Below, piece by piece: positions 249 to 45,899 of a stretch of 46,045 nt of DNA. Made by a program: the position numbers and the translations under genes. Under the pieces are notes generated by a model. That model ran no database searches, was not told where the DNA came from, and saw nothing but the letters and a program-made list of their open reading frames with translations. Source of the stretch: a virus; the IMG/VR virus record IMGVR_UViG_3300045733_000093, positions 1 through 46,045 of that record. One strand, written 5' to 3'. The first letter of the stretch is position 1; the number at the start of each line of letters is the position of its first letter.

Positions 249-684
249 CGAGAGTAGGATTGGCCCATTCTAGCGAATTGTGATGGGTTAGTGGATACTA
301 GACTGAGGCTGCGAGGAGACTATCAACCTGCTTGCGTGCGGCATCTTCGGAGATACCAAGACGGATGTAGTCGCGAATCATCCGTTCCTTGATATCCTCA
401 GCAGATACCTCAGACGGACGGTAAGGCAGTAGCGCAGCCTGATACGCATTGCTGCGCGCATTCGCCTTGAGAATGTCGTTTACCATCCCGACGACGGACC
501 ACTTCTTTTCCGTGATAGTGGCTGTCGCTTCGGCGTCGTTGTCTACGACATCGTAATCGAAAGACTTCTCAACCTTCTCTCCAGCCTGCGGATGTCCCTC
601 AGGGATTGAGAAAGTGAACTTTGCGATTTTCTTCTGCATGATGAAACTGACCTTTCATGCCAGAATGGGCCGATTCTACTCTTG
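249..684. repeat. 26-bp imperfect inverted repeats flanking the 298-639 gene
   Basis: Bases 249-274 and the reverse complement of 659-684 match at 22 of 26 positions, and all four differences are transitions. The shared core is GGCCCATTCT. The repeats lie about 24 bp beyond the stop and 20 bp before the start of the enclosed gene. They could be terminal repeats of a small mobile cassette, two copies of a regulatory site, or the arms of a long-range RNA helix around the coding region. Confidence 0.6.
298..639 (-). CDS. Hypothetical 113-aa protein, first gene of the short leftward operon
   Basis: I do not recognise this protein. It is soluble-looking, with a beta-type N-terminal half (KKIAKFTFSIPEGH) and a helical C-terminal half rich in Asp, Glu and Arg (about residues 55-110); there is no signal peptide or membrane segment. 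The start ATG at 639 is preceded by AAAGGT. Its codon use is visibly richer in G and C than that of most of the genome. It is transcribed leftwards from the promoter at 862-890 through a leader of about 215 nt, and together with the interrupted gene 216-25 forms an operon separated from everything else by a terminator. Such isolated, independently promoted small operons in lytic phages often carry immediate-early host-takeover genes; that role is inference only. Confidence 0.7.
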   Translation of the reverse strand: MQKKIAKFTFSIPEGHPQAGEKVEKSFDYDVVDNDAEATATITEKKWSVVGMVNDILKANARSNAYQAALLPYRPSEVSAEDIKERMIRDYIRLGISEDAARKQVDSLLAASV

Positions 685-4624: not shown

Positions 4625-4831
4625 ATGCAAACAATTGATTGGAATCAAATTATTCTACCTGTAGTCAATAACGTATTGATTCCAGAACTTCTAGCATTTA
4701 TTACTAAATTTAGAAATCAGAATGGTGTTGACCCCACAATTGAACAGACACGGGAAGCTCTTGCATTGAATGTTACCGAAGGTTTGTCAATGTGGGATGC
4801 ATGGTTTCAGGCACACCCCCAGGTAAAGTAA
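4625..4831 (+). CDS. Hypothetical 68-aa protein
   Basis: Starts two bases after the preceding stop. It has an N-terminal hydrophobic amphipathic helix (IILPVVNNVLIPELLAFITKF), then a polar helix and a Trp-rich end (LSMWDAWFQAHPQVK). Not recognised. It may belong with the preceding lipoprotein-like gene as a lysis or membrane module; this is only positional inference. The homing endonuclease gene begins two bases after its stop. Confidence 0.55.
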   Translation: MQTIDWNQIILPVVNNVLIPELLAFITKFRNQNGVDPTIEQTREALALNVTEGLSMWDAWFQAHPQVK

Positions 4832-4833
4832 TA

Positions 4834-5247
4834 ATGTTGCACACTTGTAATCAATGTAAGGAAGATAATTTACTTTCTGATGAGATGTGTCTTTCTCATG
4901 GATTTGCTAAAGTTTGTAAAAAATGTTATAATACCTATAAAAGAAATTATAATAAGCGTCCCAATAGAATTACTAAAGTAGCAGAAATTGCTAGAAAATC
5001 TACTTTAAAACGTAATTATGGAATGACTCTTGAAGAATATGACAAAAGAGTAGAATTACAATTAGGGGGTTGTGCAATTTGTAAACAACCTTGTGAATTA
5101 GTTGTTGACCATAATCATAAAACTAATAGAGTTAGAAATTTACTTTGTATTAAATGTAATGTTATTTTGGGATTAGTTAATGATGATGAAGAATTATTAT
5201 TTGCTTTAATAGAATATCTCAAAAGACATAGCGAGAAAATTGCATGA
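4834..5247 (+). CDS. Endonuclease VII-type HNH homing endonuclease, copy 1
   Basis: The 137-aa protein has two zinc-binding CxxC pairs at its N-terminus (CNQC, CKKC) and a recombination endonuclease VII core: CAICKQP, VVDHNHKTNRVRNLLC, IKCN. The catalytic DHNH region and the structural cysteines are intact. I chose ATG 4834 because the longer frame from 4792 overlaps the upstream gene and gives a 14-residue extension without family features. The coding sequence is especially AT-rich. It ends ATGA, overlapping the terL start by four bases, so it sits precisely between two genes as free-standing homing endonucleases do. Related copies are at 10313 and 31956. Confidence 0.85.
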   Translation: MLHTCNQCKEDNLLSDEMCLSHGFAKVCKKCYNTYKRNYNKRPNRITKVAEIARKSTLKRNYGMTLEEYDKRVELQLGGCAICKQPCELVVDHNHKTNRVRNLLCIKCNVILGLVNDDEELLFALIEYLKRHSEKIA

Positions 5248-6917
5248 GTTTTACCCAGGGATTTTGGAAGCCGAATAAGAAGCAGGAGATATTTCTATCT
5301 CTACCTACTTCTATATTTGAAGCTTTCTATGGTGGAGGAAATGCTTCGGGAAAGTCCGATGTATTACTTGTTTATGGCCTCATCCATCGGTGGCATGAGA
5401 ATCCTACATTTAAACAAGTATTTATGCGTCGGACTTTCCCAGAACTAAGAAATGAGATTGTTCCGCGAAGCCGAGAAATATATCCTAAATTTGGTGCAAC
5501 TTTTAATAAGACTGACATGGTTTGGACTTTTCCTAGACCCGACCAGTTAGGGGGAACTGGTGGTTCTAACGAAGGCGCAATGATTTTCTTAGGTCATTGT
5601 GAGGAAGAATCAGATGTTCATAAGTATGACTCAATGGAAATCAATCTATTCACGCCCGACGAGCTTACTTCGTTTTCGGAATATATCTATTTATATATTG
5701 GGTTCACTCGCGTTAGGACTAAAGTTCCTGAGTTGCCGGCCATTATAAGAGCGGCAGGAATGCCTGGTGGAATGGGACATACCTTTACCAAGAAAAGATT
5801 TGTTACACCCTGTCCTGAAGGTGGCAAAATTATTGTTGGAAAAGGTAATGTTAAAAGATTCTATGTTCATTCTACTGTTGTCGATAATCCTTATGCTGAC
5901 CCTGAGTATTCTGCTCGATTAGATGGTATTCCATCTGAGGCAGAACGTAAGGCACGTAAATTTGGTGATTGGGATGCTTATCAAGGTCAGGTATTTGACG
6001 AGTTCAGAGATAGACACTATCCTGACGAGCCTGAAAACGCACTTCATGTAGTTCCACCATTTGATATTCCTGCATGGTGGCCTAGAATGGTAATTGGTGA
6101 TTGGGGCTTCGCGGCTATGACTTATATTGGATTTTACGCGATTTCCCCATCTAAGAGATTATATTTATATCGTGAATTGACGTGGCTTAAAACTAAGATT
6201 GAAGATTGGGCACCAGTCATTGAAGATTTTATTAAACGTGAGAATCCACGAGTAGTTAAATTTTGTAGGTCTGCTTCTCAAAGTAGAGGACAGGAACATA
6301 CAATTCAACAGCAGATTGAAACAGCATTAGGTAGACCAATAGAATTGTCAGATAATAATCCGGGGTCGCGTATTGCTGGTAAGATGTTGTTACATGAATA
6401 CTTGCGATGGAAGCAGAAACCATTTATTCCACCACAAGATTTGCCAGTCTATAGTGAAGAATATGCACAATGGATACTTAGGAATAAGGGACTAGAAGAA
6501 TATAAAGGATATCTTTCAATCTTTGACCCACATGAACCTGAAACAAATATTCCTAAGTTACAGATATTTTGTTGTGAGGATAAAGTTCATGATGGTCATC
6601 CTAATTGTTGTCCTGTAGTCATTGATGCTATTAGAGCTTGTTCTTATAACAAACCTAAAGCTAATAAGGTAGCAGAAGATGTTGCAGAATTTGATGGGGA
6701 TGACCCATATGATGACCTTCGATATGCTTGTGATTCAGCAGAACGATATTTTGTAGAAGCATCAAAGGAATTTGAGAAAATACAGAAGCAAGAAATTCTA
6801 ACTCAAGTTCTTATGGGCAATCAAGATTGGACAGCATACTATAGAAATATGCGAGTAATTGATTCTCCTGTTCCTAAGATGCAAGTTGTAAGTAGATTTC
6901 ATCGGAGGTCGATGTGA
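5244..6917 (+). CDS. terL: Terminase large subunit (packaging ATPase-nuclease)
   Basis: The 557-aa protein is the motor that drives DNA into the prohead and cuts the concatemer. Residues 30-38 (GGGNASGKS) are the Walker A motif; the segment MEINLFTPDELTSFSEYIY near residue 133 is the Walker B/catalytic Glu region; the RNase H-like nuclease domain begins near VIGDWGFAAMTYIGFY with its first metal-binding Asp. Length fits the family. It starts ATG in a four-base overlap with the homing endonuclease and ends TGA in a four-base overlap with the next gene, so translation is coupled. The second nuclease motif is less canonical (VKFCRSAS where DPA-type residues are common). Confidence 0.9.
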   Translation: MSFTQGFWKPNKKQEIFLSLPTSIFEAFYGGGNASGKSDVLLVYGLIHRWHENPTFKQVFMRRTFPELRNEIVPRSREIYPKFGATFNKTDMVWTFPRPDQLGGTGGSNEGAMIFLGHCEEESDVHKYDSMEINLFTPDELTSFSEYIYLYIGFTRVRTKVPELPAIIRAAGMPGGMGHTFTKKRFVTPCPEGGKIIVGKGNVKRFYVHSTVVDNPYADPEYSARLDGIPSEAERKARKFGDWDAYQGQVFDEFRDRHYPDEPENALHVVPPFDIPAWWPRMVIGDWGFAAMTYIGFYAISPSKRLYLYRELTWLKTKIEDWAPVIEDFIKRENPRVVKFCRSASQSRGQEHTIQQQIETALGRPIELSDNNPGSRIAGKMLLHEYLRWKQKPFIPPQDLPVYSEEYAQWILRNKGLEEYKGYLSIFDPHEPETNIPKLQIFCCEDKVHDGHPNCCPVVIDAIRACSYNKPKANKVAEDVAEFDGDDPYDDLRYACDSAERYFVEASKEFEKIQKQEILTQVLMGNQDWTAYYRNMRVIDSPVPKMQVVSRFHRRSM

Positions 6918-16625: not shown

Positions 16626-17327
16626 ATGGCAACCGTAGACCTCGTTGCATCAACAGTTTTAGCTAAAGCAGCTACGTTAATGAATGATACGGCTAGGACT
16701 ATCTATACTTATACGGCTGTTCTTCCTTACTTACAGATGGCACTACAAGAGTTGCAGGAAATTTTTGAGCTTAATAGTATTCCTGCAACTCAACTTTCTT
16801 CTGCATTAATTAATATTCCTGCTGGAAATACCCAAATCATTTATAATGGTATTGGTGTTCCAACTCTACCAGATGATATGATTGAACCTAATCAGTTATG
16901 GGAAAGAGAAGCTGGTATTGACCCCTATGTTCCAATGGGACGAAGGGATTATATTCCCCATAATTTTGAAGGAACTTTAACGGGAAAGTTTAGTTTCTAT
17001 ACATGGGAAAATAATGCCATTAAGTTTTTACCCGCGAATCGGGATAATGACATTAAGATTGATTATATTAAGACTATATTCGCTCCCCTGGTGGATGAAA
17101 ATTCTTTGATTAATTGTATCAATGCTGCTACTTTCCTTGAGTATAGAACTGCTGCACTTTGTGCAGAATTTATTGAACGTAATAAAGCAAGTGCAGATTC
17201 ACTTAATGATTATGCTGTCTTAGCATTAGACCGAGCCACAGGAATTGGTGTAAAGAGTAAACAGACAATTCTTACTCGAAGAAGACCCTTTAGAGCTGCT
17301 TATAAAAAGCGTGGATTCATGACATAA
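16626..17327 (+). CDS. Head-tail adaptor / tail tubular protein A-like
   Basis: The 233-aa protein begins with a helical segment (TVLAKAATLMNDTARTIYTY, LPYLQMALQELQEIFELN) and has a central beta region containing NIPAGNTQIIYNG and LPDDMIEPNQLWER. Helices follow (AATFLEYRTAALCAEFIERN). This is the pattern of P22 gp4/T7 gp11-like adaptors that bind below the portal. Its position before the nozzle-like protein supports this. Length is typical. Confidence 0.65.
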   Translation: MATVDLVASTVLAKAATLMNDTARTIYTYTAVLPYLQMALQELQEIFELNSIPATQLSSALINIPAGNTQIIYNGIGVPTLPDDMIEPNQLWEREAGIDPYVPMGRRDYIPHNFEGTLTGKFSFYTWENNAIKFLPANRDNDIKIDYIKTIFAPLVDENSLINCINAATFLEYRTAALCAEFIERNKASADSLNDYAVLALDRATGIGVKSKQTILTRRRPFRAAYKKRGFMT

Positions 17328-30685: not shown

Positions 30686-31956
30686 TGCTTCCTCTGCTTT
30701 CCACTCATAAACACTTTAAGTTCTTCTACTTGGTCATTTGGCATAGTATAGACTATTTGATTACCTATGTTATTAGTCTTAATCATTCCTGCTGCATCGA
30801 AGGATTGCATAATTTCATCAAATTCTTGAGGATTAGAATAGTGTTGCCACATCTTCTTCATCATCACTATTCTAGTAATTTGATGATTATCTCGATTCAA
30901 TAGTTCCATAATAATCATTGTTTTTAATAGGGCAGACTCACTAATACCCTGCTTACCCATAGTAGTTTTACGAACATTCCCAAGTAGTTTCTCGCATTCA
31001 ACTATAGCGTCTGTCATAGCTTCTGGAGTGAGAACTAATTTCGGTTCATGCGCGAGGGATAATAACATAGCTACCTTCAATACACTATCCCCAAACCTAT
31101 TAAGTGTTCCAGTCTCATCCTTCTCAGATGTTTTCATTAACTCTTTAAAGTTCTCATACCAGTCATCATATATACTTCCTGCTTCATTGAAGTATATATC
31201 TCTACCATGTTTAACCTTACGATATTTATATTCATCTGATTTATCTATTTGTGCAATGGCATGAAATTCACCCACCAATTTCGCAACTTCTTTAAGATAA
31301 TGTGATGAGGCAATATAGTTAGGAGGATGAGAAAGAGGATATATAAGACTGTTACTAACCTTTGATTCTTTTTCATAAACAATAAAAGTTCTTGCAAAAT
31401 ATCCTCCTTGAATTGCTGACCTAGTAAAGAAATCCTCACTCATGGCTTCATTAGTTGCAGTAAGCATGGTAACAGTGGGATTCTTTAATTCAAATGATTC
31501 CATCTTCAATAGAGATTTCCATTCACCTACGTTATATTGTCTATCATATAGGTCAGTTAGAATTTTAGTCGCTACCTTATCATCTACTATACTACTACTC
31601 AGTTCAGAAGAACATATGAATGCTACAGACTTTAATATTACCTTTCCTCCCGGTGCTGTAACTGCTGTTCCCATCTCTTTGAGAATACCTTGAATAGATG
31701 AACGACCAGATATAATACGAGTGTTGTTTACAGCTTGAACTAACTGTCGGGCCATCGAGATTGGAGGGCCCTTCTTTAGTCCAGACTCAGCATGTAACAT
31801 TACATATATGTTTGGATATAAATTGTATATCTGTCTATTTAGCCATACCTGGTCTTTAAGCACAGCAGAAATTGCTGCGATTGCAGACCATCTCCAAAAA
31901 CTTACCGGACTTTCTAATTCCTCGTGCTGCTTTATGATTTCTGTTAGAAAGTCCAT
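30682..31956 (-). CDS. DUF3987-like P-loop replicative helicase/ATPase, probable
   Basis: The 424-aa protein begins FLTEIIKQHEELESPVSFWRW, the usual start of DUF3987-type primase-helicase proteins. The P-loop position (residues 55-65, HAESGLKKGPP) is degenerate: the usual GKS/GKT is LKKGP. The later segments VAFICSSELSS and NPTVTMLTATNE, and a C-terminal winged-helix-like region (ESALLKTMIIMELLNRD), match the family. It probably unwinds DNA at the fork with the UDG-PolA fusion upstream in the operon. Whether it hydrolyses ATP is uncertain because of the altered P-loop. A homing endonuclease lies just upstream. Confidence 0.6.
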   Translation of the reverse strand: MDFLTEIIKQHEELESPVSFWRWSAIAAISAVLKDQVWLNRQIYNLYPNIYVMLHAESGLKKGPPISMARQLVQAVNNTRIISGRSSIQGILKEMGTAVTAPGGKVILKSVAFICSSELSSSIVDDKVATKILTDLYDRQYNVGEWKSLLKMESFELKNPTVTMLTATNEAMSEDFFTRSAIQGGYFARTFIVYEKESKVSNSLIYPLSHPPNYIASSHYLKEVAKLVGEFHAIAQIDKSDEYKYRKVKHGRDIYFNEAGSIYDDWYENFKELMKTSEKDETGTLNRFGDSVLKVAMLLSLAHEPKLVLTPEAMTDAIVECEKLLGNVRKTTMGKQGISESALLKTMIIMELLNRDNHQITRIVMMKKMWQHYSNPQEFDEIMQSFDAAGMIKTNNIGNQIVYTMPNDQVEELKVFMSGKQRKQ

Positions 31957-32387
31957 TATTCATTCTCAAGAAGATACTGAGCCGCTTTATGAAGCAATAG
32001 AATATTATCTTCAAAATGACCTAATCCTTTATTACATCTACCACATAATAATCCCCTAACTTTATGAGTTATATGATTATGGTCAACATCCAACTTCTCT
32101 GATAGTTCATCACAAATTGCACATTTACCACCTTGTTGGGCATACATTATCTCATATGATTGAATTGTTAAATTATATTTTTTAAGTTTATCTTCTCTAT
32201 TCTTTTTCTTAGTATTTCTAAATTTAAAATAAGTAGAAAAACATAGTTTACAGTAAGGTTGTAATCCATGAGTATATCTATTATTGTTATAGAAATTATC
32301 TAATGACTTAAATTCATGACACCAATGACATTCCTTTTTTTGAATACCATCTATAATTTGAATAGGTAAAGGTTGAGTTCCTCTCAT
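31956..32387 (-). CDS. Endonuclease VII-type HNH homing endonuclease, copy 3
   Basis: The 143-aa protein has CHWC and CKLC pairs, CAICDELSEK, then LDVDHNHITHKVRGLLC and GRCNKGLGHF; all cysteines and the catalytic DHNH residues are present. ATG 32387 follows AAGGAG. Its stop overlaps the helicase start by one base (TAATG). It is the only copy on the minus strand and lies between a 54-aa gene and the helicase. The three copies differ clearly in sequence (N-terminal halves are poorly conserved), so they are separate acquisitions or old duplicates. Confidence 0.85.
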   Translation of the reverse strand: MRGTQPLPIQIIDGIQKKECHWCHEFKSLDNFYNNNRYTHGLQPYCKLCFSTYFKFRNTKKKNREDKLKKYNLTIQSYEIMYAQQGGKCAICDELSEKLDVDHNHITHKVRGLLCGRCNKGLGHFEDNILLLHKAAQYLLENE

Positions 32388-32389
32388 AG

Positions 32390-32554
32390 CTACTCCTTAA
32401 TTATAGGAAGTTCATTTGAGTCTACGATTTCACTGAGATGGTTAATAACTTTGATTAGTATTTCATTTTTAGGATTTATGTACTCATTTTCAAAGTATTT
32501 ATATAGCGCGAAGACTTCCTCTGGAGTAAAATGATAGTAAAGAACCTTAATCAT
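32390..32554 (-). CDS. Hypothetical 54-aa protein
   Basis: A short gene: ATG at 32554-32552 overlaps the polymerase stop (ATGA) and TAG lies at 32392-32390. The protein (starting MIKVLYYHFTPEEVFALYKY) is helical, mildly acidic and without membrane segments. Overlap with the polymerase stop and codon use typical of neighbours support a real gene. Function unknown. Confidence 0.6.
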   Translation of the reverse strand: MIKVLYYHFTPEEVFALYKYFENEYINPKNEILIKVINHLSEIVDSNELPIIKE

Positions 32555-35085
32555 TTCTTCACCATGAACTGTTCAGTTATAGACTTAAGTGATGGAATCT
32601 CAATTGGTTCATATACAGTAGGTAATTTGAACTTCTTCAAATCCATATAGTTCATTCCACATTCTATCTCACAAGGAATACTGAGTTTATGTCTTTTGAG
32701 GGTGCATTGAGAAAAATCTATTTCTCGTTCCATTTCCTCCTTTATAATAGGAATCCATTCGACTTGCTTTACAATTGGTATACAGAATAAGAGAGCATCA
32801 TGTGATTCCATGACTATCTTGATACCGGGAATTCTTTCTCTTATACGAATTGCAGCATTCTTAGTGTTATCAGATACAGCACGTTGAGGTATATAAGAGA
32901 ATCCTTGTCTAAATAGTTCTTCTCCAAACCTCTCAAAGAATGTTCGCTTACCCCCCATAGGTGCATCTACACCATAAGGTAAAGGAGCTATTAACTGTCG
33001 ATTCTTTTTAAGTGCTTCGATAACTCCTGTTTGAAATACCTGTTGAACCTTCGGGGATTTTGCGTGGAATATTTTGAGTGCTCCCTCTGCAATCGCTTCC
33101 GAAATCGTAATAGGTATCTTATATTTCCTTGCTTGCGTATTGAGTTCAATAGATGCCCTACGCTTTCCTGCGCCAAGGTGTCCTGCATGTCTAAGAGTTT
33201 TGCCAGCGAATCTAATAGGATGCTCATAACCAAGTATCTTTTTAGAATAATCAGATTCAGAACCACCGAAAAACCAAGAAGCAGTAAGAGCGTGTATGTC
33301 ATGTTCATCATACATCCTTAATGTATCTTCATCATCAGCCAATAATGCTACAACTCTGGCTTCTGCTTGTGAACTATCTGCTTGAACGAATATCTCATCT
33401 ATTTCATCAGGAATATACATTCCGCGTATATCAGCACCAATGTCACCATGTTTAGTCATAGTCTGAAATGCGGTGCCTAATACTTTCTGTTTCTTTTTAC
33501 CATTCTCATCTATTACTTCTACTTGAGGTCTAATTGGAGGGTCTTGTTGGCCTGTGGATGTTCTGCCAGTATCCAAACAGGGGAAGTAGGTAGTTCGCAT
33601 TCTTCCATCATAGTCAGGGAGGGCCATGAGGTATGTAGAGATACTCTTTCTAACCCGTCTACCTTCAAGTATAAGCTCACATATTTTCCGGTGTTCTGGT
33701 TTTTTAATAGCAGAGGGACTATTGAGTAAGGCTGTGATATCTTCTTCTCCAGTGGTGTCCTTACGAGGTAACTTGAGGTTATCCCAAAGTAAGACAGCAA
33801 CTTGCGTGGGAGAATTGACATTAACTTCTGCCCCAATGAGCTTAAATAACTCATATCTAACCCTTTCATCCCATTCAACATATTTTCTTAACAGTCTATC
33901 ACGTTCATTTGTATCAACTTTAAATCCTTGATTTTCAATACTCCAATATACATCAGGTAACTTCATTAAGAAATTTTCATAGAATGGACGCATACCTAAT
34001 TCATCTAGGTCTGAATCCATATTTTCATCTACTTCGAGTGTTACACAACTGTCACGGGCGCATCCTGTAAGTAGGTCAGTAATACTGCCTTGATACATAC
34101 CTTCATCTTTATAGAAGGGTTCTTCTGTATATAACGAAGTGTTAAAGGCGAGTCCTTTGGGAAGTTCAGGATTAATCGCGTGGGCCTTGAGCATTGTGTC
34201 TGATGCAAGATGTTCGATAATAAATCCAAGTCGTTTGATTTTATCTCTATCGTAGTTGAAGTTTTGTCCAATAATTTCTTTTTCATATAGCATCTCTGCA
34301 AGAATAATCCAACATTGAACTAAATCACTATCTGGAATAGTAGAGATTCCATCGCAATTCCATAATGGAACTGTCATACCATGATGTTTATTTAGAGACA
34401 ATCCAATACATACAGGGATACAAGTTCCGTTGGCTTCTATGTCTACAGCCATACGAACTTTATCCTTGTATCTATCGCGAAATTCAGCTAATTGTGCTGA
34501 GTTTCGACATATCTCTAAAGTCCGCGAGGGTAAAACAAATTCAGGGAATTTACTTTGAGCAAGTGCGCGTTTAAAGTCAAATATCATTATCTGACGATTC
34601 CAATACCCCTTGAATTCCGCCCCTGGTGTTTGATGTAGTAAATGTGCAGGATTATATGTAGGAATAAACTTAACCCCCATACCATGCATAATACTACCAC
34701 GATAATGTCCAATTTTGGTCTTACCAGACAAAGCCCACAAAGCAGTCCCACCAAGAGCCAAGATACAATGTGGCTTAATTTCATTAATTTCATTCTGTAG
34801 TTCATGTAATTGAATCTCCATGTCTATACCAGCATTTCTAGCTCGAATTGCGAATGGTATTTTCTTACCATAGGTATTAAGAGGGACTTCAAATTTACTT
34901 ACATTTGATAACCAACAATTTGAACGAAATATACCAGCATCAGTTAATAGATGGTCTAATTCTCTACCAGATGAGCCTATGAAAGGTTTGCCTGCAATAG
35001 TTTCTTGAGAATTTGGGCATTCTCCCAGTATCATAAGCTTCGCGCCTACGCTACCAGTTCCGGGCACATATTTCTTTTCACTCAT
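32551..35085 (-). CDS. Uracil-DNA glycosylase - DNA polymerase A fusion
   Basis: The 844-aa protein has an N-terminal family 4/5-like uracil-DNA glycosylase domain (about 1-170; GECPNSQETIAGKPFIGSSG) and then a family A polymerase. A 3'-5' exonuclease begins at DIEANG near 212 with GQNFNYDRDKI further on; polymerase motif A is ADSSQAEARV (about 567-576), motif B is around FAGKTLRHAGHLGAGKRR (about 624-641) and motif C is ESHDALLF (about 759-766). In UDG motif B the usual His-Pro is Asn-Pro (YNPAHLL), so glycosylase activity may be altered. It probably copies the phage genome, with the UDG domain sensing uracil. Confidence 0.85.
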   Translation of the reverse strand: MSEKKYVPGTGSVGAKLMILGECPNSQETIAGKPFIGSSGRELDHLLTDAGIFRSNCWLSNVSKFEVPLNTYGKKIPFAIRARNAGIDMEIQLHELQNEINEIKPHCILALGGTALWALSGKTKIGHYRGSIMHGMGVKFIPTYNPAHLLHQTPGAEFKGYWNRQIMIFDFKRALAQSKFPEFVLPSRTLEICRNSAQLAEFRDRYKDKVRMAVDIEANGTCIPVCIGLSLNKHHGMTVPLWNCDGISTIPDSDLVQCWIILAEMLYEKEIIGQNFNYDRDKIKRLGFIIEHLASDTMLKAHAINPELPKGLAFNTSLYTEEPFYKDEGMYQGSITDLLTGCARDSCVTLEVDENMDSDLDELGMRPFYENFLMKLPDVYWSIENQGFKVDTNERDRLLRKYVEWDERVRYELFKLIGAEVNVNSPTQVAVLLWDNLKLPRKDTTGEEDITALLNSPSAIKKPEHRKICELILEGRRVRKSISTYLMALPDYDGRMRTTYFPCLDTGRTSTGQQDPPIRPQVEVIDENGKKKQKVLGTAFQTMTKHGDIGADIRGMYIPDEIDEIFVQADSSQAEARVVALLADDEDTLRMYDEHDIHALTASWFFGGSESDYSKKILGYEHPIRFAGKTLRHAGHLGAGKRRASIELNTQARKYKIPITISEAIAEGALKIFHAKSPKVQQVFQTGVIEALKKNRQLIAPLPYGVDAPMGGKRTFFERFGEELFRQGFSYIPQRAVSDNTKNAAIRIRERIPGIKIVMESHDALLFCIPIVKQVEWIPIIKEEMEREIDFSQCTLKRHKLSIPCEIECGMNYMDLKKFKLPTVYEPIEIPSLKSITEQFMVKK

Positions 35086-35183
35086 TTTGTTTTCTTATGT
35101 GTTAAATCATAAACAATACTACCAATCATAGCTCCGCCAATAAGCATTACTATAAACGCAATAACACCAATAGTTTCACTCAT
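35082..35183 (-). CDS. 33-aa single-span membrane peptide
   Basis: ATG at 35183-35181 overlaps the stop of the preceding gene (ATGA), and its TGA (35084-35082) overlaps the polymerase start (ATGA). The peptide has a short acidic N-terminus (MSE), one transmembrane helix (TIGVIAFIVMLIGGAMIGSI) and a basic tail (HKKTK). Two perfect four-base overlaps make a coincidental frame unlikely. It may anchor or inhibit a host membrane protein; role unknown. Confidence 0.6.
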   Translation of the reverse strand: MSETIGVIAFIVMLIGGAMIGSIVYDLTHKKTK

Positions 35184-35422
35184 TTTATCTTTCTCAGAGC
35201 TTCTTGACGTGACTCACATTTCAGTATCTTATCATTCGCATGGATTTCTTTAGCTAGTCGTAAGTTTTCACTTACTAATCCCGTTGAAACTCCAAAGTCT
35301 CTAGCTGTTTGTGATACTGTCCATCCTTTAACTTTATGAAGCATGGTTAAGTGATAGATTTCCATTACTGTAACTTTTTCATGCCAAGTTTTACAGTTTT
35401 CATACTTCTGTTTGAAGTTCAT
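35180..35422 (-). CDS. Small helix-turn-helix DNA-binding protein (80 aa)
   Basis: Residues about 35-58 (WTVSQTARDFGVSTGLVSEN) form a clear helix-turn-helix like that of ParB/RepA or transposase-type proteins, with Gly in the turn and Ser/Val in the recognition helix. The rest is charged and helical. It is just upstream of the DNA polymerase in the same operon. It is a candidate for the regulator that binds the repeated operators or the iterons at 45289-45690, but that link is untested inference. Overlaps the cold-shock gene by 23 bases. Confidence 0.65.
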   Translation of the reverse strand: MNFKQKYENCKTWHEKVTVMEIYHLTMLHKVKGWTVSQTARDFGVSTGLVSENLRLAKEIHANDKILKCESRQEALRKIK

Positions 35423-36760: not shown

Positions 36761-36964
36761 CTACTTGTGATAACCTTCGGTTCTAACTAATCCCTTAGTA
36801 AACCACATAGCAGCTTCTTCAATCTTTGTAATAGCCAAAGCTCTTTCTCGACTATTAGGAATTGACTCCATTAACTTACAAACATCTGTAAGTTTCATTC
36901 GGAGGTCATCATTAATTTCTTTCCCTAAATCATTTAAGGGAAGAAATGCAAATCGTTCATCCAT
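36761..36964 (-). CDS. Acb2-like cyclic-nucleotide-sponge (anti-CBASS) candidate
   Basis: The 67-aa protein ends with the pattern IPNSRERALAITKIEEAAMW followed by FTKGLVR, which closely follows the Acb2/Tad1-type hook family motif: Ser-Arg-Glu, Ala-(x)-(x)-Lys-(Leu/Ile)-Glu-Glu-Ala and Trp, then a basic end. The first half has the short N-terminal and first helix of that family. Acb2 proteins form hexamers that sequester cyclic di- and trinucleotides and so block CBASS and related defence. Normally the residue after Trp is Ala-Asn; here it is Phe-Thr, so ligand choice may differ. It lies between the structured RNAs in the early operon. Confidence 0.6.
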   Translation of the reverse strand: MDERFAFLPLNDLGKEINDDLRMKLTDVCKLMESIPNSRERALAITKIEEAAMWFTKGLVRTEGYHK

Positions 36965-38402: not shown

Positions 38403-38732
38403 TTACTCATTGATTTCAGCCTTAGTCTTAATTCCATCCAAGAACTCTGTAATCGCTTCCACATCTATGTTTCTCCTTTTTTTAGTGCATTCCCCACAAT
38501 GAGGAAATGTCATAGGTTTACCGCTAGATTGACTCATAACTTGTTTACCAATAATCATTGGCTCATTACAACGATTACATTCACATAGTTTCCCTTCCGC
38601 GAGGGTAATAGGAACGTAATGTGAACAAGCTGGTTTCATACACTTATATACAAAGTATGGAGGATTGCCAAACGAGGCAATATTGAACTTTTTATATCGG
38701 TGTATATGATTGGCTGAATTTTTACTAGACAT
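38403..38732 (-). CDS. Zinc-binding hypothetical protein (109 aa)
   Basis: The protein has at least three Cys/His pairs (CMKPACSHY, LCECNRCNEP, PHCGECTKK), enough for two zinc sites of a rubredoxin- or transposase-like fold, and a helical acidic end (DVEAITEFLDGIKTKAE). It is one of several small zinc-binding proteins in the early operon. Role unknown; DNA or protein binding is likely. Confidence 0.6.
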   Translation of the reverse strand: MSSKNSANHIHRYKKFNIASFGNPPYFVYKCMKPACSHYVPITLAEGKLCECNRCNEPMIIGKQVMSQSSGKPMTFPHCGECTKKRRNIDVEAITEFLDGIKTKAEINE

Positions 38733-41398: not shown

Positions 41399-43570
41399 TT
41401 AGTTCCTCATTTCTGCGAGTTTAGTGATGTTAGTCTGACTGACTTTACCCTGTTTATTACGCTTCTCTTGATGCTTTGCGATAATTCTCTGTGCAACTAA
41501 CTTACCAATATTGCCTTCATCCCATTTAGGCATTTCACCTTTATTCATTACGACATGAAACTGTTTACGCTTATCTTCGATAGTCATATCCAAGTGTTCA
41601 TCAACTGTTCCTTCGGCTTCTGGAACTATGATGTTAATTACACTTGATAATTGTCCAATTCGACGGAATCGACCCGGTGTAGCTTGGTCCTCATTCTGTG
41701 GATTCCACTGTCTCTCATGTAGGATACTATCTGCACAAGTTTGAAGGTCAATACCTTCTCCACATGCTAATGTAGATGCTACCATTACTGCTCTGGGTGA
41801 CTTATTGAAATCCTCTTGAATCTGATATCCTTCGGGTTTACCAGTATATTCTGATGTATACTGGAGAACTGGAATACCTTCATCAATTAGTGTCTGAGCT
41901 AATTGATACCAGTCGGGATTAGATGCTTTGTCAGTATTCCTCAGAGCTTGAACCATCAATTGTCCAACATCCTTATGATGAACGAATATGACGATTTTCT
42001 TCTCAGTTTCTTCAATGAATTCTTCGATGTATCCGAGTGTAGCTGGAATCTTCGCGAGTCCAACAATATGCCTCATCTTAGACATTTTCGCTATAACTTG
42101 GATTCCACTTACAGCATCTTCATTTCCATCTTTTTCGTCAACGGCTTCATTATACCATTTAACGAAATCAGATACAGAGTCATCATATGTATCTTGGGAG
42201 AGATTATCAAGTTGAACATTCAATTTCGTTCTATTGACATCTGGAAATTCATCCATTACTTCATTGTATTCTCTACGAATGAGAATAGATGATGTAAATT
42301 CTCTGAATTTCTCTGGTCTGCGGATTCCACCCATCTTCTTCTTATTACCCTGCCAGTAATACTCTACCCACGTATCAAGAAATGCTTGATTAGAATAGAA
42401 TTTAACAGGGTCCATCATGTTTAGAACTGGGAAGAATTCACTCCCTCTATTTTTCCATGGTGTGCCCGATAGAGGAATAACTTTACAACCATTGTTGTTG
42501 ACCAGTTTCCGAACTTCTTGAGTCCGAGCAGAATCAACATTCTTAATCTGTTGACATTCATCGAGAATCACCAATTTAATGTTAAGTTTCTCAAGTTTCT
42601 CTCTTGGGAATCTACGAAGCAAGTCATATGGAATGATGTAGCATTTCAGATTAGGCATTACGAAATCTTTCGAGGTCGTAATAATCTGTGCAAGGAAATC
42701 AGGTCCAAGCCATCTAATGAGCTGTTTGAACCACTGGAATTTGATAGCTGATTTAGTGACAATGAGAGTTGGCGTATAGTCCTTCGCGTGGAATCTAAGT
42801 AGTGCGAGTGCTTCAACAGTCTTACCTAATCCCATATCATCGAAGAATCCAAATCCCTTCTGCATAGCTAATGCTATTTCAGCAGCTTGCGCACCAGCTA
42901 CTTGAAAATTGAATAGTTTATATTCATTACAGAGTGAACATTGATTCTTGACCCATACATGCTTGCAAGTCTTAATTTCAGGTTTCCAATCATTGGATAC
43001 CATTGTCTCGTAGGATGTCTTACGAGGTAATACCTTCTTAATGATATGGAAACATTCGAGGGTAATCAACTTAATTGTATTACCTTCTTTGTCTACAGTT
43101 TCAATTGAGAACTTCTCTTTCGCTACCTTACCACAATCAGGACACTTCTCTTGTAATCTAGTGACATTGAACTTGGGAGTTCTAATGACATTAACTACTT
43201 CTTTGACTTCTACTGTCATCTCAACAGTAGCGCCAGAACGAATAGCATCCAGAACATGCTCAGGAATATTAAGATGTGAGCAAGGCTGAGTATTATCACA
43301 ACCTATCTCCCTAGCTTTAGCTTCCCATATATCATCGTGTCCATGACCCGGACAAAGCGCGTGGGCCACTTCATGTTTAATTGTGCAGACTACTTCATCG
43401 TATGGATGAATGTCAATATGGAATGCGTTTAGGATAATAGTCTTATCTTTATAGACACATAATCCCAAGAATGGTTGGTCTGGATTAGTCGTAATCTTGA
43501 CATGCCAATCAGATAGATTATGACTATCTAACTCAGTTTGGCAAAATTTAGATGCACTATTTCTGTCCAT
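41399..43570 (-). CDS. SprT-like metalloprotease fused to SNF2-family helicase
   Basis: The 723-aa protein has a SprT-like domain with HEVAH at 66-70 and GHGHDDIW as second zinc-binding part. Two zinc-ribbon pairs follow (C143/C146; C202, C211/C214). A full SNF2 ATPase follows: motif I DMGLGKT (245-251), motif II DECQ (337-340), motif III LSGTP (368-372), motif IV VIFVHH, and motif VI GRFRRIGQ (633-640). All catalytic parts look intact. SprT/Spartan proteins remove DNA-protein crosslinks and SNF2 proteins remodel or displace proteins on DNA, so the fusion could clear DNA of host proteins during replication. Confidence 0.8.
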   Translation of the reverse strand: MDRNSASKFCQTELDSHNLSDWHVKITTNPDQPFLGLCVYKDKTIILNAFHIDIHPYDEVVCTIKHEVAHALCPGHGHDDIWEAKAREIGCDNTQPCSHLNIPEHVLDAIRSGATVEMTVEVKEVVNVIRTPKFNVTRLQEKCPDCGKVAKEKFSIETVDKEGNTIKLITLECFHIIKKVLPRKTSYETMVSNDWKPEIKTCKHVWVKNQCSLCNEYKLFNFQVAGAQAAEIALAMQKGFGFFDDMGLGKTVEALALLRFHAKDYTPTLIVTKSAIKFQWFKQLIRWLGPDFLAQIITTSKDFVMPNLKCYIIPYDLLRRFPREKLEKLNIKLVILDECQQIKNVDSARTQEVRKLVNNNGCKVIPLSGTPWKNRGSEFFPVLNMMDPVKFYSNQAFLDTWVEYYWQGNKKKMGGIRRPEKFREFTSSILIRREYNEVMDEFPDVNRTKLNVQLDNLSQDTYDDSVSDFVKWYNEAVDEKDGNEDAVSGIQVIAKMSKMRHIVGLAKIPATLGYIEEFIEETEKKIVIFVHHKDVGQLMVQALRNTDKASNPDWYQLAQTLIDEGIPVLQYTSEYTGKPEGYQIQEDFNKSPRAVMVASTLACGEGIDLQTCADSILHERQWNPQNEDQATPGRFRRIGQLSSVINIIVPEAEGTVDEHLDMTIEDKRKQFHVVMNKGEMPKWDEGNIGKLVAQRIIAKHQEKRNKQGKVSQTNITKLAEMRN

Positions 43571-43609: not shown

Positions 43610-43686
43610 TGGTGCCTCTGATTGGAGTCGAACCAATACTTTATCGATTTTAAGTCGATTTTCTCTGCCAGTTGGAATACAGAGGC
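43610..43686 (-). tRNA. tRNA-Leu (anticodon UAA) with short variable loop
   Basis: The minus strand folds as a cloverleaf: acceptor GCCTCTG/CAGAGGC, D-arm with a three-pair stem, anticodon stem ATCGA/TCGAT with 7-nt loop CTTAAAA (anticodon TAA), 5-nt variable loop, T-arm ATTGG/CCAAT with TTCGACT loop, discriminator A, and CCA encoded in the DNA (43612-43610). UAA reads the Leu codon UUA, abundant in this AT-rich genome. Bacterial Leu tRNAs usually have a long variable arm; this one does not. No other tRNA was seen. Confidence 0.85.
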
Positions 43687-44130: not shown

Positions 44131-44847
44131 TTATTGAGACTTCGCATCTTTAATGCTGCTACGCAACAGATTAGCTGCGACAGCGACAGTAATTCCCTTT
44201 TGAACTACTAACATCTGAAGTGTAAATTCTGACACTCCAAGTTCAGCAGCATACTTTCGAAGTTCGATTTTGTCAATCTTCTTAGAAGTAGTAGTGGTCT
44301 TGATTGTTTTCGCCCCAATAGATTTGGGCGCGAGTGGCTTGTATGAGATATCAGATATCTTAAGCTTTTCACGTTCATCCTGTTTCAATTGATTCGCCAA
44401 TTGATTTAAATAAACCTGAATAGCTTTTTGTTTATTTCCAGCATCAATAATCTGCTGATTCATCTCAAATATAACAGTCTTGAAATGATTGAATCTGTGC
44501 ATTAGTTCTTCGGCTAATGCATATGGCTTATTTATGATAGTTATGTCGTCCATGATAGTCTGTTTCAATTCAGTAATTGAGACAGTGGCCGCCGTAAATA
44601 GGTCAGTCCGCACAGTAATAGATTCGTCTATTTGTCGGGCTGTATTCAAAGCAGCATTCAATCTATTATCTTCCATTACTTCCAATCGCTTGACCTGATT
44701 CTCAGGTTTTGACAATTCAGCTTTAGACGCAAGTTCCTTAGTCCAGCAATCATCACAGAAAAACATATTTCCATAATGACAGGTGACAATAGTTTCATTG
44801 TCACATACTTCACACTTTCCATTCTTTCGACCGTGAGTCTCAATCAT
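44131..44847 (-). CDS. Zinc-finger coiled-coil phage protein (238 aa)
   Basis: N-terminus has a four-Cys zinc site (CEVC near 12-15 and CDDC near 31-34 with a His between). Then comes a long coiled-coil region (about 60-170) and a basic linker with many Thr and Lys, ending in a small helical domain with YAAELGVSEFTLQMLVVQKG, similar to a HTH. This looks like an early-transcribed phage protein that binds DNA or a host complex. GGAAGG lies upstream of ATG 44847. Confidence 0.6.
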   Translation of the reverse strand: MIETHGRKNGKCEVCDNETIVTCHYGNMFFCDDCWTKELASKAELSKPENQVKRLEVMEDNRLNAALNTARQIDESITVRTDLFTAATVSITELKQTIMDDITIINKPYALAEELMHRFNHFKTVIFEMNQQIIDAGNKQKAIQVYLNQLANQLKQDEREKLKISDISYKPLAPKSIGAKTIKTTTTSKKIDKIELRKYAAELGVSEFTLQMLVVQKGITVAVAANLLRSSIKDAKSQ

Positions 44848-45191: not shown

Positions 45192-45220
45192 TTGTCCTCT
45201 TTAGTGGACACTTTTATTAT
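45192..45220 (+). promoter_or_regulatory. Rightward promoter-like sequence entering the iteron locus
   Basis: TTGTCC (45192-45197), 17-bp spacer, TATTAT (45215-45220). It would produce a transcript into the non-coding iteron region; there is no plus-strand gene there, so a primer or regulatory RNA is conceivable. Confidence 0.35.
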
Positions 45221-45288: not shown

Positions 45289-45343
45289 TTCCGTGATTGT
45301 TCTGTGACTATTCTGTGACTGTTCTGTGAATACTCTGTGAACC
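45289..45343 (+). repeat. Iteron array 1: five contiguous 11-bp repeats
   Basis: Five units without gaps: TTCCGTGATTG, TTCTGTGACTA, TTCTGTGACTG, TTCTGTGAATA, CTCTGTGAACC. Consensus TTCYGTGANTR. The 11-bp period puts each site on the same face of DNA. Adjacent DNA to both sides does not extend the array. Confidence 0.85.
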
Positions 45344-45351
45344 GGATTCGC

Positions 45352-45381
45352 GCTAACCCGCTGATTCTAAACGAGTTAGGC
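45352..45381 (+). repeat. 30-bp element beside iteron array 1
   Basis: Exactly 8 bp after array 1. It has weak dyad ends (CTAAC/GTTAG) and core CTGATTCTAA. It matches, at 20 of 30 positions and without gaps, the element 8 bp after array 2 on the opposite strand. Confidence 0.7.
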
Positions 45382-45465
45382 CGACCCCCTGGACTCTCCC
45401 CTTCCATTATACCACCTATTATGCTATGCTTGAGTGACCTATAAAGAGGACACTATATGGTGGGG

Positions 45466-45504
45466 GGTTATAATATTATATAAAAAAAAAAAAAAAAAAA
45501 AAAA
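45466..45504. other. AT-rich tract with 23 consecutive A
   Basis: Starts with GGTTATAATATTATAT and runs to A23 (45482-45504). It lies between the two iteron arms. AT-rich DNA flanked by iterons is the usual layout of an unwinding element of a replication origin. The exact A-run length is uncertain because homopolymers assemble poorly. Confidence 0.6.
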
Positions 45505-45598
45505 GAATACACCCACTCACACTATTGTCTAGTCCACTGTCATCCTCTGAGGACAGCTAGAGGGCCGGTTTTTTGATGGGGGGTCTCCTTCCCTTCGA

Positions 45599-45627
45599 GC
45601 TAAGTTCATTAGAATCAGTCACTTAGC
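45599..45627 (-). repeat. 29-bp element beside iteron array 2
   Basis: Perfect 7-bp arms GCTAAGT (45627-45621 on the minus strand) and ACTTAGC, with core CTGATTCTAA at the same offset as in the first element. It is 8 bp from array 2, exactly mirroring arm 1. Confidence 0.7.
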
Positions 45628-45635
45628 CCGGAATG

Positions 45636-45690
45636 GTCGCACGGAAACATCACAGAACGACCACGGAAACATCACAGCATATTCACGGAA
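45636..45690 (-). repeat. Iteron array 2: five contiguous 11-bp repeats, inverted
   Basis: On the minus strand from 45690: TTCCGTGAATA, TGCTGTGATGT, TTCCGTGGTCG, TTCTGTGATGT, TTCCGTGCGAC. It has the same TTCYGTG core, number and period as array 1 but opposite orientation, so the arrays point at each other across 292 bp. Confidence 0.85.
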
Positions 45691-45780
45691 TGTTCAGGAT
45701 TTAGGTTTCCATTAGAAATGTGATTCACTATCTGCTATTTTATATTTCGAATGTGAAGGGTAATGTATACGATATTATGG

Positions 45781-45899
45781 CAATACGATAAGTAATATAA
45801 AACTCACCATATACAGGAGGATAGTATTCCATTAACAATACTTGCGATAAGCAAGCTAAAAGCCGTATCAAAATATATAATGGGACAATACGATAAGCA
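45781..45899 (+). repeat. Short direct repeats CAATACGATAAG
   Basis: CAATACGATAAGTA (45781-45794) and CAATACGATAAGCA (45886-45899) are near-identical, and 45836-45853 holds a third copy with four extra bases that form a small hairpin (CTTGC/GCAAG). Spacing is about 52 bp. They lie between array 2 and the terminator of the short operon, where no gene is seen. Confidence 0.55.

Follow-up and report, generated by a model that had tools for sequence, protein, structure and literature searches.

We describe a phage locus at which two inverted arrays of 11-bp repeats (iterons) face each other around a single core with a weak duplex, a layout shared with about 30 uncultured relatives. We class the site as an iteron-type element, new in its layout and in its candidate binder. 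The reading that we favor, with slightly more confidence than doubt, is that of a two-armed iteron-type replication origin of the phage family, with a 109-aa double zinc-ribbon protein (Zn109) as the most likely iteron binder. The replication start of most uncultured phages is unknown, since known initiators are missing from them; for a whole family we can now name one site and one candidate for the protein that binds it, together with about 30 natural variants of the site, most of them with their cognate proteins.

The mirrored locus and its genomic setting

The window analyzed here is the whole 46,045-nt stretch of record IMGVR_UViG_3300045733_000093. Its first 127 bases are identical to its last 127, and because of this overlap between both ends the phage genome is closed as assembled, at 45,918 bp. 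A leftward block of early, replication genes runs from 45142 down to 30326 and encodes a PolA polymerase with an N-terminal uracil-DNA glycosylase domain, a DUF3987 primase, a SprT-SNF2 helicase, a Sak4-like protein and a PD-(D/E)XK nuclease. The rightward (late) block, from about 1129 to 30325, carries the terminase and structural genes. The mirrored locus sits in the non-coding gap that separates the two blocks, and its parts, with two features elsewhere that are referred to below, are as follows.

880-908, unstranded: weak match to the dyad, at 7.2-7.6 bits, upstream of the gene for a 113-aa protein, the place of a third strong dyad in several relatives
5244-6917, rightward block: TerL, about 6 kb from the mirrored locus on the circular map
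45289-45343, plus strand: arm 1, five contiguous 11-bp iterons of the form TTCYGTGA plus three loose bases
45344-45351, plus strand: arm 1 linker, 8 bp, GGATTCGC
45352-45380, plus strand: dyad 1, GCTAACCCGCT-GATTCTA-AACGAGTTAGG, 25.5 bits against the family model
45434-45454, unstranded: palindrome-like motif of the TGTCC/GGACA type in the core, with partners near 45193 and 45538
45467-45509, unstranded: weakest core duplex, TTATAATATTATAT followed by A23 (45482-45504) and GAATA, a candidate unwinding element
45599-45627, minus strand: dyad 2, GCTAAGTGACT-GATTCTA-ATGAACTTAGC, 23.4 bits against the family model
45628-45635, minus strand: arm 2 linker, 8 bp, CATTCCGG as read on the minus strand
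45636-45690, minus strand: arm 2, five contiguous 11-bp iterons, the mirror of arm 1

The units of arm 1 are, in order, TTCCGTGATTG, TTCTGTGACTA, TTCTGTGACTG, TTCTGTGAATA and CTCTGTGAACC, and those of arm 2, read on the minus strand from 45690 to 45636, are TTCCGTGAATA, TGCTGTGATGT, TTCCGTGGTCG, TTCTGTGATGT and TTCCGTGCGAC. The arms lie about 290 bp apart. TTCYGTGA occurs eight times in the genome, six times within the arms and otherwise at 508 and 44760. An earlier note on this DNA had described two arms on opposite strands, each of five 11-mers, 8 bp and a companion element, facing each other across an A23 core; the coordinates were confirmed, and the ten units reached a joint score of 86 out of 110, against a maximum of 64 in 60 first-order-Markov resamplings of the region. 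No second mirrored-array place in the window genome rose above the search threshold. The same note had taken the companion for a 30-bp element with a shared core. That core does recur at the same offset (CTGATTCTAA is present in both elements of the window phage), while the element is really 29 bp long and is better described as an 11-7-11 dyad than by a 10-bp core.

Other short motifs were seen around the locus. Palindromes of the form TGTCC...GGACA lie around and within the core, at 45193-45212, 45434-45454 and 45538-45557, with similar ones near the locus in many relatives, and these are possibly operators of another regulator. Beside arm 2, on the plus strand, the motif CGATAAGYA occurs three times within 45772-45897, twice as exact CGATAAGCA; exact copies of the latter occur twice at the same place in G001 and twice near the locus in L007, and are absent from most other relatives.

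Several features of the wider genome were recorded. Two minus-strand genes are fusions, one joining a uracil-DNA glycosylase to the PolA polymerase (32551-35085) and one joining a SprT-like protease to the SNF2 helicase (41399-43570), and a tRNA-Leu (anticodon taa; 43610-43686, minus strand) lies directly upstream of the latter in the early block. Two endonuclease-VII-type genes at separate places (4792-5247, plus strand, and 31956-32387, minus strand) are patchy among relatives and are perhaps homing-type insertions. A 67-aa protein (36761-36964, minus strand), with related genes in several relatives, matches the Acb2/Tad1 hairpin domain of anti-CBASS/anti-Thoeris sponges (Pfam PF24729, E 1.3e-9). 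No integrase or prophage relative of the phage family was found, and prophage relatives pointed to no host (a helicase search of 84,980 host genomes gave a best match of 22% and no close relative). A search for a cultured relative was likewise negative, and the family is apparently virulent.

Conservation of the layout and diversity of its parts

Relatives were collected by searches with the helicase, the polymerase and the 113-aa protein, and mirrored five-unit arrays were then sought by a sequence-blind method. Conservation of the arm structure, proposed in the earlier note as a check, was borne out: mirrored arrays were found at one locus per genome in the approximately 30 relatives, where the leftward early (replication) block meets the late block, with joint scores of 71-92. 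About 20 genomes scored 80-92 while their second-best places reached at most 71, and the lowest-scoring accepted case (G034) scored 71 as compared with 64 in resamplings. Two genomes (G044 and G059) were scored as array-bearing from one arm only, their contigs breaking at the locus. Among 46 arms, all with 11-bp spacing, 33 had five units, 12 had six and one had seven, and a strict family rule of five per arm was therefore rejected. No DNA similar to the locus was found in 50,697 records of annotated phages, and we found no description of such a site in the open-access literature.

Near-full-length contigs of five phages (G015, G016, G018, G019 and G027) break in or near the A-run and carry the arms at opposite ends. 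This is useful for closing such genomes, the mirrored sites being a sequence mark by which broken contigs of these phages can be paired. G016, which lies within the clade, has A28 and a dyad without 11-bp arrays; irregular CAAATACAT repeats lie next to its core in their place. The G008 contig, at 62,483 bp, is longer than the rest, carries two copies of the HTH gene (16708-16944 and 61136-61369) and is probably a join of two phages.

The sequence of the iterons differs between relatives. TTCYGTGA is shared by the window phage and G001, TTCCCTAC by G009 and L018, and TTCTAACC by G005, G008 and G011, while G025 has TTCTTGGC, G028 has TTCCTGTA and G013 has TTCTCGTG. The opening TTCY is frequent in the window clade and is not general, as G080 (TTACTGGT) and G082 (GACCGTAT) illustrate. 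At core positions 5-8 the information content is 0.93-1.23 bits within a phage, whereas it falls to 0.02-0.57 bits when phages are pooled; spacer positions 9-11 are looser even within one phage. Since mere copying would have homogenized the spacer too, the loose spacer argues that a specific protein reads the core, and the specificity of this protein would vary from phage to phage. Iteron type does not track the helicase phylogeny (r about 0.0-0.17).

An alignment of the elements of both arms, drawn from some two dozen phages, gave a family dyad in the form of a 29-bp inverted repeat, CCTAAGTCGTT-N7-AACGACTTAGG. Of 47 cases, 46 have a 7-bp center, one misplaced match (arm 2 of G025) being counted among the 47. 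The distance from array to dyad is 8-10 bp in 36 arms and 19-20 bp in 10 arms, and helical phase is therefore kept. Pairing between the dyad halves amounts to 6.88 pairs, as compared with 7.2 expected if the halves were independent. Because the halves vary independently, a hairpin or cruciform was rejected and the dyad is read as a protein site on duplex DNA. In whole-genome scans at 17 bits the dyads were almost confined to the mirrored locus (2 Mb of random sequence, scanned as a control, gave a single match of at least 17 bits and none of 20). The exceptions were a third strong dyad that precedes the 113-aa gene by about 170-280 bp in five phages (G007, G008, G009, G016 and G028), a third dyad near the early promoter in two (G014 and G015), and single dyads in some array-less relatives (G033, G042, L357, L362 and L363). 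From this distribution the dyad looks like an operator of a regulator more widespread than the iterons.

The core between the arms does not exceed the genome in overall A+T content (G+C 0.36-0.51). It contains a sharp A/T element, in most phages A15-A28, often followed by TAAAGAA, and in G030 and G082 alternating AT. Of 25 phages, 14 have the weakest 60-bp duplex of the entire contig inside the core, and the core reaches the weakest 0.5% in every one of the 25; by a rough estimate, the chance that a 290-bp stretch contains the contig minimum is below 1% per genome.

Proteins that may bind the site

Four proteins of the window phage were considered as partners of the arrays or dyads.

298-639, minus strand: 113-aa protein, adjoining the locus in most array-bearing phages; AlphaFold2 predicts a beta-hairpin and four helices, with no known fold
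35180-35422, minus strand: 80-aa HTH protein, the earlier, unsupported candidate for iteron binder
38403-38732, minus strand: Zn109, 109-aa double zinc-ribbon protein, the one gene present in step with the arrays; proposed to bind the iterons
44131-44847, minus strand: 238-aa early protein with long helices and an N-terminal zinc site; next to arm 1, its gene is the first conserved early one

Each of the 62 window genes was made into a profile, and the profiles were scored against 16 genomes with arrays and 17 without them. Zn109 alone separated the two groups, with at least 90.2 bits in the former and at most 47.4 bits in the latter; the next best gene reached an accuracy of 0.91. The HTH and 113-aa proteins co-occur with the arrays in the main clade. 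The HTH protein, which the earlier note had singled out, has been given up as iteron binder: it is kept in array-less G016 and G049, it is absent from five array-bearing phages (G030, G034, G044, G080 and G082), and its recognition helix is nearly invariant. The 113-aa protein was rejected as well, being present in the same two array-less phages, missing from array-bearing G044, G080 and G082, and without a fold match. G016 and G049 thus carry both proteins and an A-run without arrays. No relative of the 113-aa protein was found in the 50,697 annotated phage records, and structure models of the 113-aa and 238-aa proteins gave no PDB match below E 1. The 238-aa protein might be the dyad-binding regulator.

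Zn109 was also used prospectively, as the only query in a search of viral contigs, which brought up distant carriers at 36-44% identity. Among those with a locus that extends sufficiently upstream, five were new phages with mirrored arrays, scoring 71 (L455), 84 (L456), 78 (L464), 87 (L465) and 86 (L467); the L455 score is borderline, yet a strong dyad is in position. L460 has a possible single arm, and no arrays were seen in L457 and L466, whose contigs may stop short of the place. In two of the five, G080 and G082 (the same phages as L465 and L467), the HTH, 113-aa and 238-aa genes were all undetectable. Searches of Pfam, PHROG and PDB gave no significant match to Zn109 itself, and none of the 50,697 phage records contained a relative, in agreement with the suggestion in the earlier note that the binding protein may be new.

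The sequence of Zn109 covaries weakly with iteron type. Among 25 phages the partial Mantel correlation was 0.31 (p 0.002) for iteron positions 4-9 and 0.28 (p 0.01) for positions 5-8; with the five distant phages added (30 in all) it was 0.16 (p 0.031), and TerL covaried equally (0.20, p 0.017). An attempt to name the iteron-contacting residues of Zn109 by column-wise association was dropped, the phylogenetic background being too high. The helicase tree implies three to four changes of the array trait, and the Zn109 gene follows each change while the HTH and 113-aa genes do not; the Zn109 trait entered this test as scored in the profile comparison, and in no row does it differ from the array trait. 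Because the changes are so few, even this perfect match is not significant (p 0.25-0.5).

The weak covariation and the small number of independent events on the tree would suit an alternative for the partner alone, in which Zn109 is a linked passenger and the HTH, 113-aa or 238-aa protein or a host factor binds the iterons. We regard this as rather unlikely, given that all three phage proteins are absent from array-bearing G080 and G082, that G016 and G049 retain two of them without arrays, and that a host factor would not account for phage-specific cores.

Function of the site and comparison with known systems

What marks iteron origins is a set of phased iterons beside an unwinding element and near replication genes (PMC5043065). 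The locus has tandem, phased, replicon-specific repeats (11-bp units with a phage-specific core) and, adjacent to them, an easily unwound A+T-rich element; a known initiator of the Rep or O family was sought in the early block with Pfam and PHROG and was not found. The earlier suggestion that iterons and AT-rich DNA recall a replication origin is the best supported reading, the core being among the weakest duplexes in every genome tested and the layout being conserved across the family. GC skew, which had also been proposed as a check, follows gene direction, which flips at the locus, and fourfold sites carry no replication signal, so that skew speaks neither for nor against an origin.

In the origin that we propose, a phage-encoded protein, most likely Zn109, would load in a phage-specific manner on the five phased iterons of each arm, and a second, more widely conserved dimeric protein would occupy the dyad, in helical phase next to each array. 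The two mirror-image complexes would stress and unwind the A/T element between them, at which the DUF3987 primase/helicase, the SNF2 helicase and PolA could enter, possibly bidirectionally. The mirror symmetry points to a pair of initiator filaments turned towards the same A/T element, in which the dyads would mark the fixed end of each complex. A possible cause of the shifts in iteron specificity is conflict, and origin-directed nucleases or origin-hijacking satellites (as in PLE/ICP1) are, by analogy, a plausible force. A broader proposal, which we hold with somewhat more doubt than confidence, is that of a family-wide mirrored two-armed origin of a new type with a new class of initiator (a double zinc-ribbon of about 100 aa), in which the scaffold stays fixed while iteron specificity diversifies between close relatives as in plasmid incompatibility groups. 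Whether a tiny zinc-ribbon protein can be an origin binder, and whether phage origins diversify like plasmid incompatibility groups, are questions that the present site makes testable.

Were the locus a packaging site (pac or cos), a small terminase or an accessory protein would bind the arms and dyads and the genome would be cut near the core. Multi-repeat sites flank the cut in the pac sites of known phages, TerL lies close by on the late side of the circular map and covaries weakly with iteron type (p 0.017-0.05), and contigs that are not closed circles often end within the A-run. However, TerL is also found in array-less phages, the partner gene sits in the early block, packaging has no need for a weak duplex, and the contig ends fall on both sides of the A-run and overlap in some phages (G019 and G027), as expected for assembly breaks at a homopolymer. 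We consider packaging improbable. The position between divergent blocks would also suit a transcription-control center, with arrays and dyads as operators or enhancers that switch between early leftward and late rightward transcription and with an iteron diversity that resembles immunity. The extra dyads upstream of the 113-aa gene, near the early promoter and, alone, in array-less phages make the dyads at least operator-like, but an operator requires neither the weakest duplex of the genome nor five-unit arrays mirrored about a homopolymer core, and immunity is unlikely because no prophage relative or integrase was found; control of transcription as the function of the whole site seems to us about as improbable as packaging.

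A partition or DNA-pairing site, that is, a parC-like centromere, is very unlikely. The resemblance to parC of plasmid R1 pointed out in the earlier note holds for the number and length of the repeats (two sets of five 11-bp units), and repeat sequence and specificity differ between ParMRC families as well (PMC4949242, PMC9426499). It does not extend to orientation, the parC repeats being direct and the present ones inverted, nor to the arrangement around the parM promoter or to the required ParM and ParR, and there is no sign of a plasmid-prophage. Pfam searches that covered all early-block ORFs of at least 67 aa, and 43 of the 62 ORFs overall, found no ParM, ParA or ribbon-helix-helix (ParR) gene. 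Site-specific recombination, in which the dyads would be 11-7-11 core sites (a geometry that resembles tyrosine-recombinase core sites), the iterons would be arm sites and the core would invert, is scarcely credible and largely refuted, since the 7-bp centers of the paired dyads, identical in the window phage (GATTCTA), G001 (GATTCGA) and G032 (TCGATTC), are unequal in about 20 other phages, and no recombinase gene was found among the ORFs scanned.

We return to the origin reading and the systems that it resembles. In phage P4, two separate groups of short repeats, ori1 and crr, serve one origin, as the two arms would here; these lie kilobases apart and are bound by the alpha primase-helicase, whereas about 290 bp and a single core separate the present arms. 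Herpes simplex oriS and oriL also have inverted sites for an origin protein around an A+T core, in a eukaryotic virus with another protein and no arrays of five. The origin of PLE satellites, with its RepA_N initiator, is likewise an iteron origin that has diversified, and a poly-A tract is mentioned there (PMC7145576, PMC8263062). PLE1 differs in having three semi-palindromic iterons of about 30 bp and a RepA_N initiator, neither of which was found here, and in being a satellite rather than the phage itself. In PLE satellites the origin iterons have diversified in step with the DNA-binding part of RepA, and changes in the origin escape an origin-directed phage nuclease (PMC8263062); ParR/parC families have likewise diversified the specificity of their partition sites (PMC9426499). 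We take both as parallels and not as evidence for the present phages. The closest likeness is to the iteron origins of plasmids and phages such as P1 oriR, RK2 and lambda ori, which share the phased, replicon-specific repeats beside an A+T-rich unwinding element and near replication genes (PMC5043065). Unlike these, the mirrored locus has no DnaA box and no known initiator family, and its iteron sequence is phage-specific; its two mirrored arrays of 11-bp units face one core, with an extra conserved dyad beside each.
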